Assembly: GCA_026874595.1 (NCBI GenBank)
Contig: CM049313.1
Coordinates: 46,632,159-46,696,158, forward strand
Length of the DNA: 64,000 bases
From: Sipunculus nudus
Lineage: Eukaryota > Annelida > Sipuncula > Golfingiida > Sipunculidae
Direction: 5' to 3'
Positions 17,270 through 42,335 of the stretch are shown here, one piece after another. A model generated the notes under the pieces. The model did not search any database. It saw nothing but the letters and a program-made list of their open reading frames with translations, and had not been told where the DNA came from. A program made the translations under genes and the position numbers. Each line of letters opens with the position of its first letter. The first letter of the stretch is position 1.

Positions 17270-18706
17270 TTAATGACTCTGCTTTTGAATAAATTCTTTA
17301 AAGAAAGCCACGGTTGCAATCTCTGCTCTCTCAATTAAAAACTCTCTATCCTTGGTTTCCAATTCGAAATCAATTGCATCAATATAGTCAGTGTGGATCC
17401 CAACCGTACGATGTACGTCACCGGGATTAATACTCAGCTCCTTGAGAGTTGCTTCAATACTCTTGAAAAGAGCTGTGGCAAAATCACTTAAACCATTAAT
17501 ACTGCTCAGCCAATAACTCTCCTCTATGGCCGCTCGGAAGGGGAAGTTATGGCTGTCCATAAACCGTATAAGTTCGTCATGGGTCAGCTGCCCGTTGCCA
17601 TCGAGATCGAGCTCCTTGAATACTTCATCAGCATCGAAGCTCCTTCCAAACAGAATGTCCAGATACTCCTGGTCCACCTTCGTCAAAGCCAGTTTGAACT
17701 CATCAGCCGATATCAAGCTATCCCCGTTAGTGTCGGACTCATGCAGGGCTGTCCAGAAGACCTTTGCAGCATAAGCCATCTGTTGGCGGTGGTCAACCTG
17801 TCCCAGTACCTTGTCGCAGTCACGCGCATATTTCGTTGCCAGAGTAGTGTTAGGTCTCTTCAGTTTGGTGCCATTATATCGTTTTTGAAATTCCTTATAA
17901 GAAATACAATACTCCCCGGTAGTATACGTCATAACTCCTAGAGTCTTACCATTATATTCTCCGAATTGATCCTCTTGATTCCCCAATTTGTTTAGGAAGG
18001 CATCCTCTGGTTTCATGGACAGATACCAACCATCGTAGGCGAACAACGGGTAGTTGCATGTCATGGCGCCGTCTATGTAATAATTAATTCCATCATCTGT
18101 GTCCATAATCACAGGTTGAAACACTAATGGTATTGACATGGACATTCTGGCGGCCACTGCTATGGACATGGTCGGTGTAGTCTTCGGGTGGAAGTAGGCT
18201 GCTGTTTGGGTGCTGACATTACAAGCGACAAGACACAATTCTACCCCCTTTTCTTTGTACAACTGTCCAAACGTAATATCTGCTTTGCCGCATTTTTTAA
18301 TTAACACGTCATGTATGTAGTTCAAGACTCTGTCACCAGGGTTCCAACCGAATTTGTTGAACAAATTCGGCAGCAAGGAGAATAAACCAAAGGAAGCATC
18401 GCTCACCATTGCTTTGAAGTCTACTGTATATATATCGTACATTTCATCTATGTCACAGCCAATGGCCAGCAACATGGCAAGGAGGGCGCCACCGCTCGTG
18501 CCCACGTATCTCTTTATCTTTTTCAACAACCCGATTTCATCCATGACCTTGAAAGCTCCAAGGTAAGAGATCGTTCTGCTGCCTCCACCAGCGAGTGCAA
18601 GGTTTTCGAACTGGAAGTCATATTTTCTCACTTCCGGTGGTATATCTAGTTGTTTTTCTTTGAATTTCCGGGCGGACTCTGCTCTCGCGCTCGCCTCGTT
18701 ACCCAT
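17270..18706 (-). CDS. Patatin-like phospholipase with N-myristoylation signal and two EF-hands
   Basis: A 478-residue protein encoded in one uninterrupted frame. It is predicted to hydrolyse acyl esters of membrane lipids by the patatin Ser-Asp dyad. Seen: glycine-rich oxyanion motif GGGSR at residues 40-44, nucleophile elbow GTSGG with Ser71, and DGA with Asp212. C-terminal to this, two complete EF-hand loops lie at 325-336 (DTNGDSLISADE) and 367-378 (DLDGNGQLTHDE). The N terminus MGNEAS fits the myristoylation rule (Gly2, Ser6), followed by basic residues (R13, K14, K16, K18), so membrane tethering is likely. There is no signal peptide or membrane span. The start is secure: an in-frame TAA lies 6 nt upstream and the context is AAGA-ATG-G. 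Function beyond lipase chemistry and calcium binding is inferred. A frameshifted tandem paralogue lies 6 kb upstream. Confidence 0.92.
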   Translation of the reverse strand: MGNEASARAESARKFKEKQLDIPPEVRKYDFQFENLALAGGGSRTISYLGAFKVMDEIGLLKKIKRYVGTSGGALLAMLLAIGCDIDEMYDIYTVDFKAMVSDASFGLFSLLPNLFNKFGWNPGDRVLNYIHDVLIKKCGKADITFGQLYKEKGVELCLVACNVSTQTAAYFHPKTTPTMSIAVAARMSMSIPLVFQPVIMDTDDGINYYIDGAMTCNYPLFAYDGWYLSMKPEDAFLNKLGNQEDQFGEYNGKTLGVMTYTTGEYCISYKEFQKRYNGTKLKRPNTTLATKYARDCDKVLGQVDHRQQMAYAAKVFWTALHESDTNGDSLISADEFKLALTKVDQEYLDILFGRSFDADEVFKELDLDGNGQLTHDELIRFMDSHNFPFRAAIEESYWLSSINGLSDFATALFKSIEATLKELSINPGDVHRTVGIHTDYIDAIDFELETKDREFLIERAEIATVAFFKEFIQKQSH

Positions 18707-24705: not shown

Positions 24706-26140
24706 TTACCCTACGTTTTGAATATATTCTTTAAAGAAAGCCAATGTTGCAATCTCTGCTCTCTCGATTAAAAATTCTCGATCCTCATTTTCCAGGTTGA
24801 AATCAGCTACATCGATATAGTCAGTGTGGATCCCAACCGTGCGATGTGTATCTTCTGAATTAAAACTCAGCTCCTTGAGAGTTGCTTCAGTGCTCCTGAA
24901 AAGAGCTGTGGCAAAATCACTTAAACCATTAATACTGCTCAGCCAATAACTCTCCTCTATGGCCGCTCGGAAGGGGAAGTTACGGCTGTCCATAAACCGT
25001 ATAAGTTCATCATGGGTCAGCTGCCCGTTACCATCGAGATCGAGCTCCTTAAATACTTCATCAGCATCGAAGCTCCTTCCTAACAGAATGTCTAGGTACT
25101 CCTGGTCCACCTTCGTCAATGCTAATTTGAACTCGTCAGCCGATATCAAGCTGTCCGCGTTAGTGTCGGAGTCATGCAGGGCTGCCCAGAATGTTTTTGC
25201 AGCTTTAGCCATCTGTTGGTGGTGGTCAACCTGTCCCAGTACCTTGTCGCAGTCACGTGCACGTTTCGTTGCCAGAGTAGTATTAGGTCTCTTCAGTTTG
25301 GTGCCATCGTATCTTTTCTGTAATTCCCTATAAGAAGTACAAAACCTCATGGAATTATACGCCATAACTCCTATAGTCTTACCATTATATTCTCCGAATT
25401 GATTCTCTTGATTCCCCAATTTGTTTAGGAAGGCATCCTCTGGTTTCATGGACAGATACCAACCATCGTAGGCGAACAACGGGTAGTTGCATGTCATGGC
25501 GCCGTCTATGTAATAATTAATTCCATCATCTGTGTCCATAATCACAGGTTGAAACACTAATGGTTTTAGACATGGACATTCTGGCGGCCACTGCTATGGA
25601 CATTGTCGGTGTAGTCTTCGGGTGGAAGTAGGTGGCTGTTTGGGTGCTGACATTACAAGCGACAAGACACAATTCTACCCCCTTTTCTTTGTACAACTGT
25701 CCAAACGTAATATCTGCTTTGCCGCATTTTTTAATTAACACGTCATGTATGTAGTTCAAGACTCTGTCACCAGGGTTCCAACCGAATTTGTTGAACAAAT
25801 TCGGCAGCAAGGAGAATAAACCACAGGAAGCATCGCTCACCATGGCTTTGAAGTCTACTGTATATATATCGTACACTTCATCTATGTCACAGCCAATGGC
25901 CAGCAACACGGCGAGGAGGGCGCCACCGCTCGTACCCGCGTATCTCTTTATCTTTTTTAACAACCCTATTTCATCCATAACCTTGAAAGCTCCAAGGTAA
26001 GAGATCGTTCTGCTGCCTCCACCAGCGAGTGCAAGATTTTCGAACGGGAATTCATTTTTTCTCACTTCCGGTGATATATCTAGTTGTTTTTCTTTGAATT
26101 TCCGGGCGGATTCTGCATTTGCGCTTGCCTCGTTACCCAT
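24706..26140 (-). pseudogene. Frameshifted tandem copy of the EF-hand patatin-like phospholipase
   Basis: It is the same architecture as the gene at 17270-18706, with about 48 of 478 residues different by hand count. The N terminus (MGNEAS, ATG at 26140), GGGSR, GTSGG, DGA and both EF-hand loops are all present. One extra base at about 25568 shifts the frame after residue ~191 (MSMS), and translation stops at 25526 after a short shifted tail; the remaining ~280 codons are open in the other frame. The nearby difference is not a simple homopolymer slip (an A inserted next to an A-to-T change), but an assembly error is still possible. In the first EF loop the fourth residue is Ala instead of Gly. 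If the frameshift is real, the lipase core loses Asp212 and both calcium sites. The 3' end differs (ends QNVG). Confidence 0.85.
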
Positions 26141-30559: not shown

Positions 30560-33488
30560 AAGTTTTATTTAACATTCGCCATTTGTGGCTGAACCCAAAA
30601 ACAAATAGTAATCAGATTCAAACATATATTTTGGTCTGCAACCCTACAAAATAAGTAATTTATCTTTGTCCAAAAATTGAAAGCAACAGAACAATCTGTT
30701 AATATGTGGAGGTAAGTATACTTTCCTCCACATACATCATATAACCCACTATTTAAAAATCCACATTTAAATAAACAATCATTCGTTGGTAAAGCAAAAC
30801 GTATTAATCTCCAGTACAAATCTAACTGATACTTCTCATTTACATTATTATAGCATCTGCTGATAACATGTTTACATTCTAAATTATTATTAAAAACTTG
30901 CTTCTATTTATCCACACAGCGTGGTATCTTTATCTTTATATCCATAACTCTATAATATATTAACTTCGTTGTAAATCGATCAAATGAAATACTGCAATTT
31001 TTATCTACTTCAATGATAAAGTCCTGGCTGAATGTCGATTCTCTTCCTGACCTCAATGTACTAATCCATGACGACGGAATACTCTTAATTGATGATAGAT
31101 ACTGACTTCTCGACCACTTAGACTCTGTTATATTTAAATTACTTATCAAATCATCATATCTGTGAAAATAAACTAAGCGCCTGTTCCAAATATCTTTAAT
31201 ATCACGTACACCTTTATCCATTAGAAATCGGTTAAAATGAGTATTATTTTCTTCATCAACTATATATGGATTTAAGAACAATGGCTGATATAATAAAACA
31301 CTTTTCTCATTTGAAAAATTACGTTACACATTCAATCTACTCTATGAATCCAACATTTCACGATAAACTAATGGTTGGTGTGCGCAGTTCCTTGAATTTG
31401 CCTTGTAAACTAATCCTAAAATATCTGTCCACAAATTTACCCCTTTATACATACCAATAAAATATTCTAACATTTTTCTACATTTATGTTCCATATTTTT
31501 ATCTAGCTAACCAGGATGCTCTTTGAGCCATAATTTTAATTTTAAAATTTATTAGATTCTGACCCCCTTCTGTCTCTAGGCAGAGTTATAACATCTTTTG
31601 GCACTAGATGTCGCTTATAATTCCAAAAGAAACTCACGATCAACTGCTCAATTTTCTCAATTACCCATGATGGTACATGCAATACATTAGAAAAATACCA
31701 AACACCACTTGATGCTATTGCATTTGCTACCGTAGTTTCCCAACATACGACAGATTTCTCAAAGACCACAAATACAACACACTTTTTAATTTCTTAATTT
31801 TTGGATCCGAATTTTCTTTATAAGTATCCACATTGCAAAAATATAAACCTAAAATTTTAACGCGATCGGAGGTCCAATTTATATTGGCTGGTTTATCAAG
31901 TCGGCCGATATTCCCTCCCAGCCACAAACCTTCTGTTTTATCAAAATTAAGCTTGGCTCCAGGCGCTTTCTGAAAAAAAGTGGAAAAGGGATAAGCAATT
32001 AATTGGAAACGCATCAGACAAAAATACAGTGGTGTCATCCGCATACTATGCTATTTTTAATTCTGTATTATCCGGTAATGTTATACCTTTAATCCTCACA
32101 TCAGCTCTGATAGCATTTGCAATTATCTCAGCCAAAATTACATATAATAAAGGGCTCAATGGACAGCCTTGACGGGTGCCCTTGAATAACCTAAAAAAAG
32201 ATAACAAATATCCATTAATCTTAACAGAACTTTCCACGTCACAATAACACAACTGTATGCATTTAATAAACCTAATTCCAAAACCAAACTTATTAAAACA
32301 TCTAAACATAAAACCCCAATCAAAACGATCAAAAGCCTTTTCCTGGTCGATACATAGTAAGGCTGCAGGTATATTTTTTTAATCTGGTATATTCAATAAC
32401 ATCTCGTATTAATGATGTTGTTTGCGAAACCGATTGGTCATTCACTTAACATGTCTGGTCATTATTCATGATAAAATGTAATAATTTCTTCAAACGGTTA
32501 GCTAAGTATTTAGTCATAATTTTATAGTCCACGTTAAGAAGAGAAATTGGTCGCCATTTTTTAACAAATAACGATCCCCTTTTTGTATACTTAGGAAATA
32601 ACACCACGTCTTTGTGATGTGAAAAGTTTTCCATTTTCGTATGCGGTATTTATAACATTAATATAATCCCTCCCCAAAATATGCCAGAATCGTTTATAAA
32701 ACTCGGCTGATAGATCGTCTATTCCAGGACTTTTATTATTTTGAAAGCTTTTAAGTGTCTCTGTTGCTTCTTCCAAAATAATATTTCTTTCACAATTGGC
32801 TGCCTGTTCTGACAACAATTTACTAGAAACAAAGGAAAGAAAAGAGTCCTGTGTTTTGGAATCAGCGGGCTCACACTTGTATAATCTTTTGTAGAAGGAC
32901 ACCCCCGCACTGAGCATTGAATGAATATATATCTGAATGGACCTCCCCGGCGTCGTCCTTAATCCCACTTATAGTCCGCTGAATCCCCCTTTGTTTCTCA
33001 AGACCTATAGAGAATTTTAACATTTGTTTTTCCTCCTCCCGATATTGGACTCTGCACTGGATAGCCGCTGCTTTGGCTGTCTTTGTGTTAAAATCCTGTA
33101 AAAAAATTTCTAAATTTAGAAGCGTTGACACATTCACGTTTTCTCCTCGTTCTTGCCTGGATAGCTGTGAATTGTATTCTGTTTCTAATTTTAGTTTGAC
33201 CCTTTCTTTGGCTTGTGCTTTTTGTTTACAATACTCTCGAGTAATCATTTTTAAATGAAATTTTACCAGGTCCCACCATACTAACACATCTTTATATTTC
33301 ATTGTTTTCGTTTGCTAGAGATTCCAGAAATGTGCTATTTAATCGCCATAATAAGTATCACTTAAAATTGTATTTGCCAAAATCCTGGGCCTTTGGGTTC
33401 AACACACAAATCTAAAGATACACATACACATTCATGGTCAGATAATACATTACGTTTAATATTGCTGCTTTTTGAAGGTATGGTCCGG

Positions 33489-40130: not shown

Positions 40131-42335
40131 ACGTATTGATGGCTCTAGATGGATGGTGTGAACAATAATTGATGATTCTTGGTGGATAGAATGGACAAAA
40201 TATTGATGGCTCTGGATGGATGGTGTGAACAAAATATGATGATTCTTGGTGGATACTGTGTTGATCGCTCTGGATGGATGGTGTGGACAATAATTGATGA
40301 CTCTTGGTGGATAGTGTGGACAGAATATTGATGGCTATTGATGGATGGTGTGGACAATAATCGATGACTCTTGTTGGATAGTGTGGACAAAATATTGATG
40401 GCTATGGATGGATGGTGTGGACAATAATTGATGACTCTTGGTGAATAGTGTGGACAAAATATTGATGGCTCTAGATGAATGGTGTGAACAATAATTGATG
40501 ATTCTTAGTGGATAGAGTTGACAAAATATTTATGGGTATGGATGGATGGTGTGGACAATAATTCATGATTCTTGGTGGATAGAGTGGACAAAATATTGAT
40601 GGCTCTGGGTGGATGGTGTGAACAATAATTGTTGATTCTTGGTAAATACTGTTGACAAAATATTTATGGGTATGGATGGATGGTGTGAACAATAATTGAT
40701 GATTCTTAGTGGACAGAATGGACAAAATATTGATAGCTCTGGATGGATTGGGTGAACAATAATTGATGATTCTTGGTAAATAGTGTTGACAAAATATTTA
40801 TGGGTATGGATGGATGGTGTGAACAATAATTGATGATTCTTAGTGGACAGAATGGACAAAATATTGATGGCTCTGGCTGGATTGGGTGAACAATAATTGA
40901 TGATTCTTGGTAAATAGTGTTGACAAAATATTTATGGGTATGGATGGATGGTGTGAACAATAATTGATGATTCTTGGTAAATAGTGTTGACAAAACATTT
41001 ATGGGTATGGATGGATGGTGTGAACAATAATTGATGATTCTTGGTAAATAGTGTTGACAAAACATTTATGGGTATGGATGGATGGTGTGGACAATAATTG
41101 ATGATTCTTGGTAAATAGTGTTGGCAAAATATTTATGGGTATGGATGGATGGTGAGAATAATTGATGACTCTTGGTGGATAGAATGGACAAAATATTGAT
41201 GGCTCTGGATGGATGGTGTGGACAATAATTGATGATTCCTGGTAAATAGTGTTGACAAATTATTTATGGGTGTGTATGGATGGTGTGGACAATAATTGAT
41301 GACTCTTGGTGGATAGTGTGGACAAAATATTGATGGCTCTGGATGGATGGTGAGAACAATAATTGATGATTCTTGGTAAATAGTGTTGACAAAATATTTA
41401 TGGGTATGGATGGATGGTGTGAACAATAATTGATGATTCTTAGTGGACAGAATGGACAAAATTTTGATGGCTCTGGATGGATTGGGTGAACAATAATTGA
41501 TGATTCTTGGTAAATAGTGTTGCCAAAATATTTATGGGTATGGATGGATTGGGTGATCAATAATTGATAATTCTTGGTAAATAGTGTTGAAAAAATATTT
41601 ATGGTTATGGATGGATGGTGTGAACAATAATTGATGATTCTTGGTAAATAGTGTTGACAAAATATTTATGGGTATGGATGGATGGTGTGAAAAATAATTG
41701 ATGATTCTTGGTAAATAGTGTTTACAAAATATTCATGGGTATGGATGGATGGTGTGAACAATAATTGATGATTCTTTGTAAATAGTGTTGACAAAATATT
41801 TATGGGTATGGATTGATGGTGTGGACAATAATTGATGACTCTTGGTGGATAGTGTTGACAAAATATTTATGGGTATGGATGGATGGTGTGAAAAATAATT
41901 GATGATTCTTGGTAAATAGTGTTGACAAAATATTTATGGGTATTGATGGATGGTGTGAACAATAATTGATGATTCTTGGTAAATAGTGTTGACAAAATAT
42001 TTATGGGTATGGATGGATGGTGTGAACAATAATTGATGATTCTTGGTAAATAGTGTTGACAAAATATTTATGGGTATGGATGGATGGTGTGAACAATAAT
42101 TGATGATTCTTGGTAAATACTGTTGACAAAATAATTTATGGGTATGGATGGATGGTGTGAACAATAATTGATGATTCTTAGTGGATAGTGTGGACCAAAT
42201 ATTGATGGATCTGGGTGGATGGTATGGACAAAATATTGATTTCTCTGGGACGATGGTTCGGACACAACATTGATGGATCTTGGTGGATAATGTAGACAAA
42301 ATATTGATGGCTCTGGGTGGATGGTGGCTTTGCAC
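40131..42335. repeat. 67-bp higher-order satellite (two related ~33-bp monomers)
   Basis: About 33 copies of a 67-bp dimer. One half is typified by GATGGATGGTGTGAACAATA then ATTGATGATTCTT. The other is typified by GGTAAATAGTGTTGACAAAA then TATTTATGGGTAT, or GGTGGATAGTGTGGACAAAA then TATTGATGGCTCT. The halves are themselves homologous. The two kinds of second half alternate in blocks, with the GGTAAATAGTGTT type dominating from about 40900 to 42150. Minus-strand frames repeat peptides such as HQYFVHSIHQESSII in rotating frames because 67 is not a multiple of 3; they are artefacts. Confidence 0.95.

Follow-up and report, generated by a model that had tools for sequence, protein, structure and literature searches.

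Patatin lipases and EF-hands are each known, and so are calcium-regulated lipases with a related fold. In cytosolic phospholipase A2 (cytosolic PLA2; group IV, structures 1cjy and 5iz5), calcium works via a membrane-docking C2 domain, a separate unit at the N-terminus, and recoverin and the other neuronal calcium sensors carry an MGxxxS start and four EF-hands with no enzyme domain. The gene described here lies in a stretch of 64,000 nucleotides of the Sipunculus nudus genome (GenBank assembly GCA_026874595.1, contig CM049313.1, positions 46,632,159 to 46,696,158; the whole stretch is referred to as the window) and joins a patatin domain, a pair of EF-hands and an MGxxxS start in one intronless reading frame. 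The window protein is like recoverin in its start and its EF-hands, but its single EF pair, placed inside a lipase, and the presence of a catalytic domain set it apart from the neuronal calcium sensor class. In contrast to cytosolic PLA2, whose C2 domain is separate, the EF pair of the S. nudus family is located inside the catalytic domain, and unlike calcium-dependent protein kinases (CDPK) and other EF-hand enzymes, in which the pair is C-terminal to the catalytic domain, the family members are predicted lipases with an internal pair. We consider it rather likely that the window gene is a functional retrogene of a family of N-myristoylated patatin-type (phospho)lipases that have the EF pair in the regulatory segment and would be switched by calcium at the membrane; its anatomy and retrogene origin, taken by themselves, are nearly certain.

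According to the parts of a 2026 review that were available to us (PMC12871566), patatin enzymes comprise a D-segment with the Asp, a regulatory segment running from strand 5 to strand 6 with its loop, and a C-terminal patatin segment, and many of these lipases depend on partner proteins acting on the flexible regulatory segment. Thus, VipD is opened by Rab5 moving a loop of this segment, a helix of the segment participates in the dimerization of iPLA2 beta, and the PNPLA2 residues implicated in the interaction with ABHD5 fall within it. The same parts describe trans activation of VipD/ExoU-type effectors (4akf, 4kyi, and 3tu3) by Rab5 or ubiquitin and the extra domains of these effectors, as well as PNPLA9/iPLA2 beta as a calcium-independent enzyme inhibited by a separate calmodulin, and they mention in-cis EF-hands for neither PNPLA9/iPLA2 beta nor PNPLA2/ATGL. 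The window protein is not a member of the VpdC family (NCBIfam NF043045; 62.4 bits against a cut-off of 1000).

Bacterial patatin-like phospholipases (~350 aa), represented by 80 GTDB loci among at least 354 relatives, resemble the family in having the whole patatin domain with its last helix-strand-helix (30–41% identity over the best segment). However, the 46 of these 80 proteins that entered alignment A4 and the EF-hand scan gave no EF-hand match (0/51 by Pfam when the scanned viral relatives are included), and the bacterial relatives that were aligned lack the inserted cassette described below. A tblastn search of phages returned no match, the corresponding plasmid search returned 12 records matching the patatin part only, none of 84 stretches of viral contigs examined for family-specific patterns was confirmed, and scanning viral and genome collections with single proteins gave nothing informative. 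No structure with patatin and EF-hands in one chain is found among the 50 VIA-align entries listed, which excludes nothing. A patatin/EF-hand protein is named in none of the titles or abstract openings listed in our literature search, whose coverage included few subscription papers; in PMC10470789, as far as its accessible part goes, the EF-hand is part of a phospholipase C. The family may already be predicted, though unnamed, in invertebrate proteomes.

Domain anatomy of the window gene

The open reading frame (ORF) starts with ATG, contains zero internal stops and is preceded, three codons 5' of the ATG, by an in-frame TAA that was read from the sequence. The Patatin domain (Pfam PF01734) covers residues 36–221 of the protein (E-value 5.3e-26; score 92.4 bits, cut-off 27.7), with a complete signature formed by the oxyanion glycines G40–42, the GxSxG nucleophile S71 and the DG[GA] aspartate D212. 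EF-hand_1 scores 43.1 bits (cut-off 25.4), with 2 stretches at E ≤ 1 within residues 321–386, and both loops are canonical, each having 12 residues, acidic or polar side chains at positions 1, 3, 5, and 9, and Glu at position 12. Every motif listed in the initial annotation (MGNEAS, GGGSR, GTSGG, DGA, and two EF loops) is thus present in the ORF; the Ser-Asp dyad that it had proposed corresponds to S71/D212, in agreement with both Pfam and the conservation among paralogs, and its two EF-hands were likewise recovered.

The catalytic and predicted calcium-binding residues are shared by most of the S. nudus family members compared. Ser71 is retained in 11 of 12 members (the exception is gene C, with Gly) and Asp212 in all 11 with data. 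In EF loop 1, Asp occupies position 1 in 8/11 members and position 5 in 11/11, and Glu occupies position 12 in 11/11; EF loop 2 has Asp at its first position in 11/11 and Glu at position 12 in 10/10. Homologs devoid of the dyad or the EF-hand residues throughout, which the initial annotation had named as evidence that would speak against it, were therefore not observed; the other adverse evidence that it named, an upstream exon displacing the MGN start, is conceivable. Since the paralogs keep these positions and dN/dS among the intact intronless copies is well below 1 (see below), the motifs of the window gene are beyond chance.

The N-terminus of the family is variable except at the positions relevant to acylation. 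Residues G2 and S6 occupy the positions read by N-myristoyltransferase, and M1, G2, and S6 are the sole invariant residues among the first 21 in all 12 members whose ATG start can be read (e.g., MGNEAS, MGNSTS, MGSGAS, and MGGCKS), so that the MGxxxS rule invoked earlier holds throughout while residues 7–21 vary. The mean pairwise identity between these 12 starts is 1.0 at positions 1, 2, and 6, 0.56 at position 3, 0.08–0.33 at positions 4–5 and 7–20, and 0.24 at position 21. The starts of genes G and H were read by eye from the sequence, and gene K, with a poor model and the start LGNHAS, which lacks Met, stands outside the 12. Conservation of the signal against a variable background is good evidence, short of proof, for N-terminal acylation of the family proteins.

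Both the alignment and the predicted structural model place the EF-hand pair inside the patatin domain, after strand 5 and before the helix preceding strand 6 (Table 1). The observation that patatin core and EF-hands share one gene therefore stands, but the pair is inserted within the domain rather than being a separate addition. The cassette (residues ~262–405) replaces ~20 residues of the bacterial relatives. The strand-5 pairing KTLG/ETLG is clear in alignment A3 and partial in A1, whereas neither A4 nor the full profile alignment shows it; excision of the insert yields only a slight preference for it. In the model and its VIA-align comparison, the regulatory and C-terminal segments complete the patatin fold, which matches VipD, PlpD, and patatin. 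The EF helices are modeled at modest confidence and the stretch 264–304 at low confidence; an N-terminal helix is predicted for residues 2–17.

Table 1. Features of the window gene and of the broken intronless copy (positions in the window)
Feature	Position	Strand	Support
Whole gene, 478 codons: putative myristoylation signal and patatin lipase with inserted EF-hand pair	17270..18706	-	ORF, Pfam, retrogene clade
MGNEAS, codons 1–6, predicted N-myristoylation signal (G2, S6)	18689..18706	-	12-member comparison
GGGSR, residues 40–44, oxyanion-hole glycines	18575..18589	-	G40–G42 kept in 12/12 members; Pfam patatin
GTSGG, residues 69–73, nucleophile elbow, Ser71	18488..18502	-	Ser71 conservation
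DGA, residues 212–214, catalytic Asp212	18065..18073	-	Asp212 conservation
Strand 5 of patatin sheet, residues 254–261 (KTLGVMTY)	17924..17947	-	model strand 255–261, pLDDT 84; gene A intron after residue 260
Inserted cassette in regulatory segment, residues ~262–405	17492..17923	-	alignment A3, profile comparisons, Pfam on 54 members; left edge not exact
EF-hand loop 1, residues 325–336, DTNGDSLISADE	17699..17734	-	Pfam, 12-member comparison, model helix-loop-helix
EF-hand loop 2, residues 367–378, DLDGNGQLTHDE	17573..17608	-	Pfam, 12-member comparison, model helix-loop-helix
End of regulatory segment, residues 406–439: helix 406–423 and strand 6 (434–438)	17390..17491	-	model; matches bacterial patatins
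C-terminal patatin segment, residues 449–477, helix 451–477	17276..17362	-	model pLDDT 92–95 over 451–470
Broken intronless copy, 5' piece: match to residues 1–193, 94% identical, patatin	25526..26140	-	frame break near residue 191–195
Broken intronless copy, 3' piece: match to residues 193–475, 88% identical, EF-hands	24706..25557	-	same broken copy

The intron-bearing family and its intronless clade

A search of the S. nudus genome with the window protein produced 81 matches. Six of them correspond to five intronless copies on contig C8, which carries the window, whereas the remaining matches are exon-sized and lie chiefly on C5, the others being on C1, C2, C3, and C7. The combination of patatin and EF-hands, considered unusual for an animal in the initial annotation, is indeed present, but it is the standard architecture of an expanded multi-gene family in this genome. 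Neither this intron-bearing family nor the second, broken copy within the window had been mentioned in that annotation.

Gene models were obtained by aligning the protein across introns with a custom spliced aligner that enforces GT-AG boundaries, gene A being the query for the other genes. Because the aligner imposes GT-AG, these dinucleotides are not independent evidence of introns, in contrast to shared intron positions, open frames and the wrong-strand control, in which gene A scores 172 compared with 1652 on the correct strand. Gene A itself (C5:39882648-39894178, minus strand) consists of 12 open exons with 478 codons, and its product shares 67% identity with that of the window gene. Five full-length genes (A, D, E, F, and G) each have 12 coding exons without stops or frameshifts, and they have 11 intron positions and phases in common (in gene F, the last intron is displaced by a single residue where the alignment has a gap). 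All 11 introns are also shared by gene B, but its model requires three frameshifts and a spurious exon of one base. Genes C, H, and J share 8, 9, and 7 of the 11 introns, respectively; the differences reflect aligner noise (one extra intron in each) and lie toward the broken or cut ends of these genes, as the fetched range truncates genes H and J and the 3' end of gene C was not found. The loci B2, I, and K yielded no usable model and were dropped, and the models leave out the loci on C3, C7, and at C5:1.58 Mb. In gene C (C5:39911156-39919690), EF loop 1 is degenerate in addition to the loss of the nucleophile Ser, and this gene is possibly a dead enzyme or a pseudogene, to judge from its sequence.

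A maximum-likelihood tree, from which genes C and J were omitted, combines 51 bacterial or viral proteins with 7 from intron-bearing and 3 from intronless genes (61 in total). In this tree, the window gene and the two other intact intronless copies, which lie on the same chromosome, form one clade (support 100/97) that is sister to gene A (100/98) and nested in the intron-bearing family. As a consequence of this nesting, the intronless state is derived, and joint loss of 11 introns is its simplest explanation. Consistent with this, the window gene aligns to gene A as a single exon with zero indels, all 11 introns being absent precisely. The values of dS are 0.99–1.11 between the intronless copies and gene A and 0.33–0.39 among the intact intronless copies, which indicates that the retrocopy event is old and that the clade multiplied later. 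The lack of introns reported for the window gene is thus borne out, and among the origins that had been proposed for it, retrogene formation is supported by the 11-intron parent family, the position of the clade beside gene A and the indel-free loss. Lateral transfer of the window gene as such is unsupported, since it nests in an intron-bearing host family on chromosome-sized contigs; direct transfer from a bacterium is rejected in view of this nesting and of the lack of the EF cassette in the 46 bacterial relatives scanned. How the family as a whole joins the bacterial enzymes is unsure, because the tree contains long viral branches beside the family and L103 has an odd letter make-up.

What the window copy shares with the other intronless copies lies mostly in the coding sequence: homology reaches at most 110 bases farther upstream, and there are a few short, weaker patches besides. 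The two copies within the window, ~93% identical at the DNA level over the parts compared, match from 28 bases 5' of the ATG to 11 bases 3' of the stop. An A9 run occurs 30 bases 3' of the stop in the window copy and an A7 run 51 bases 3' in the intronless copy L104; these runs are not shared, and the event is old. Two of the five intronless copies are broken, namely L105 (two stops) and the second window copy (Table 1). The dN/dS ratios of the intact intronless pairs are 0.26, 0.30, and 0.27 (bootstrap bounds 0.18–0.41).

Alternative explanations of origin and function

Two alternatives to a functional retrogene were considered. The absence of introns could be ancestral, or could reflect separate intron losses or an intronless arrival from a bacterium; the patatin domain is indeed closest to bacterial enzymes in the collections compared (80 loci). 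Nevertheless, the intronless copies are sister to gene A within an 11-intron family, their introns are missing with no indel against that gene, and the EF cassette is found in none of the 46 scanned bacterial relatives, which makes such an origin extremely improbable. Alternatively, the window copy might be a dead or dying retrocopy whose ORF is open by chance, as the breakage of two of the five intronless copies could suggest. Against this, its 478 codons are open at dS ~0.33–0.39 with the low dN/dS ratios of the intact pairs (upper bootstrap bound 0.41), and the catalytic, EF and G2/S6 residues are all retained; we regard a dying copy as very improbable, and the window gene is, on this sequence evidence, probably functional.

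In the mechanism that we propose, myristate and basic residues would hold the lipase at the membrane, and calcium bound to the EF pair would reposition helix 406–423, strand 6 and the 440–447 lid loop. The repositioned lid might open or else close the active site, thus gating the access of a presumed substrate to Ser71, and the EF pair would be an in-cis counterpart of the activators that other patatin lipases recruit in trans. The chances of calcium switching through the regulatory segment appear to us about even. A recoverin-like myristoyl switch, in which the EF pair controls exposure of the myristate and calcium shifts the enzyme between cytosol and membrane rather than acting on catalysis, would agree with the co-occurrence of two EF loops and the invariant G2/S6 in a single chain and with the predicted N-terminal helix 2–17; we find it unlikely, since recoverin-type proteins have four EF-hands and a myristate pocket whereas here a single pair is embedded ahead of the last helix-strand-helix of the lipase, a location that favors a catalytic role. 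Somewhat unlikely, in our estimate, is a purely structural role, with constitutive binding of calcium or magnesium stabilizing the enzyme and no switching. Conservation of the loop residues across paralogs and the modest model confidence of the EF region, with no proven contact to the lid, are compatible with such a role, but the pair is placed in a segment to which the accessible parts of PMC12871566 ascribe flexibility and a regulatory role in related lipases.

Several points temper the reading as a calcium-switched, myristoylated and functional retrogene. The 12 starts behind the acylation signal are not independent, as they include three intronless copies and the close genes E, F, and J. 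A target-site duplication was not found: in none of the five intronless copies do the upstream and downstream flanks (300 bases each) have a 9-mer in common; this would also suit an ancestral or bacterial intronless origin. The dN/dS ratio is below 1 even in pairs that include a broken copy (0.32, bounds 0.20–0.54, and 0.44, bounds 0.28–0.71), as a dying retrocopy would allow, so that selection before breakage is inseparable from selection now. Finally, contact between the EF pair and the lid is unproven owing to the modest pLDDT of the EF region and the low confidence of stretch 264–304. As for the history of the retrogene and its family, we tentatively suggest that an EF pair encoded on four exons and bracketed by phase-0 introns entered a bacterial-type patatin at its regulatory segment, giving rise to a membrane-anchored lipase that calcium would gate directly within the catalytic domain, and that the intronless clade spread afterwards; this scenario is conceivable rather than probable.

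Genomic setting and implications

Contig C8 is 80.9 Mb long and also carries Wnt exons; the Wnt-family matches (36 in total) are spread over C1, C8, C9, C15, and C16, as expected for an animal host, and a bacterial contaminant as the source of the window is rejected on these grounds. Elsewhere in the assembly, two bacterial-looking patatins, L001 (C113) and L004 (C138), are different genes that lie on short contigs with bacterial-looking neighbors; among their listed frames, none has EF-hands. The non-chromosomal contigs C60, C61, C62, C66, C72, C74, C75, C89, and C123 carry ten COX1 genes whose frames are open when read with the bacterial code, nine of them with frames of 577–578 aa and nearly equal scores; our guess is that these contigs represent several bacterial genomes, perhaps symbiont strains. 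Other features of the window include an ORF at 31727–32044 (minus strand) that, judged by eye, resembles part of the reverse transcriptase of a non-LTR retrotransposon, and two long tandem arrays, at 501–1713 (29.7 copies of a 41-base unit) and at 40134–42240 (31.6 copies of a 67-base unit).

If the EF-hands turn out to be only structural, the finding amounts to an expanded, uncharacterized lipase family in S. nudus. If the proposed mechanism is true, the family would connect calcium signaling directly to the cleavage of membrane lipids by a route unlike that of the C2 domain of cytosolic PLA2, and it would offer a natural single-chain test of how the regulatory segment gates a patatin active site; the retrogene clade supplies in addition an intact, intron-free copy whose expression needs no splicing.
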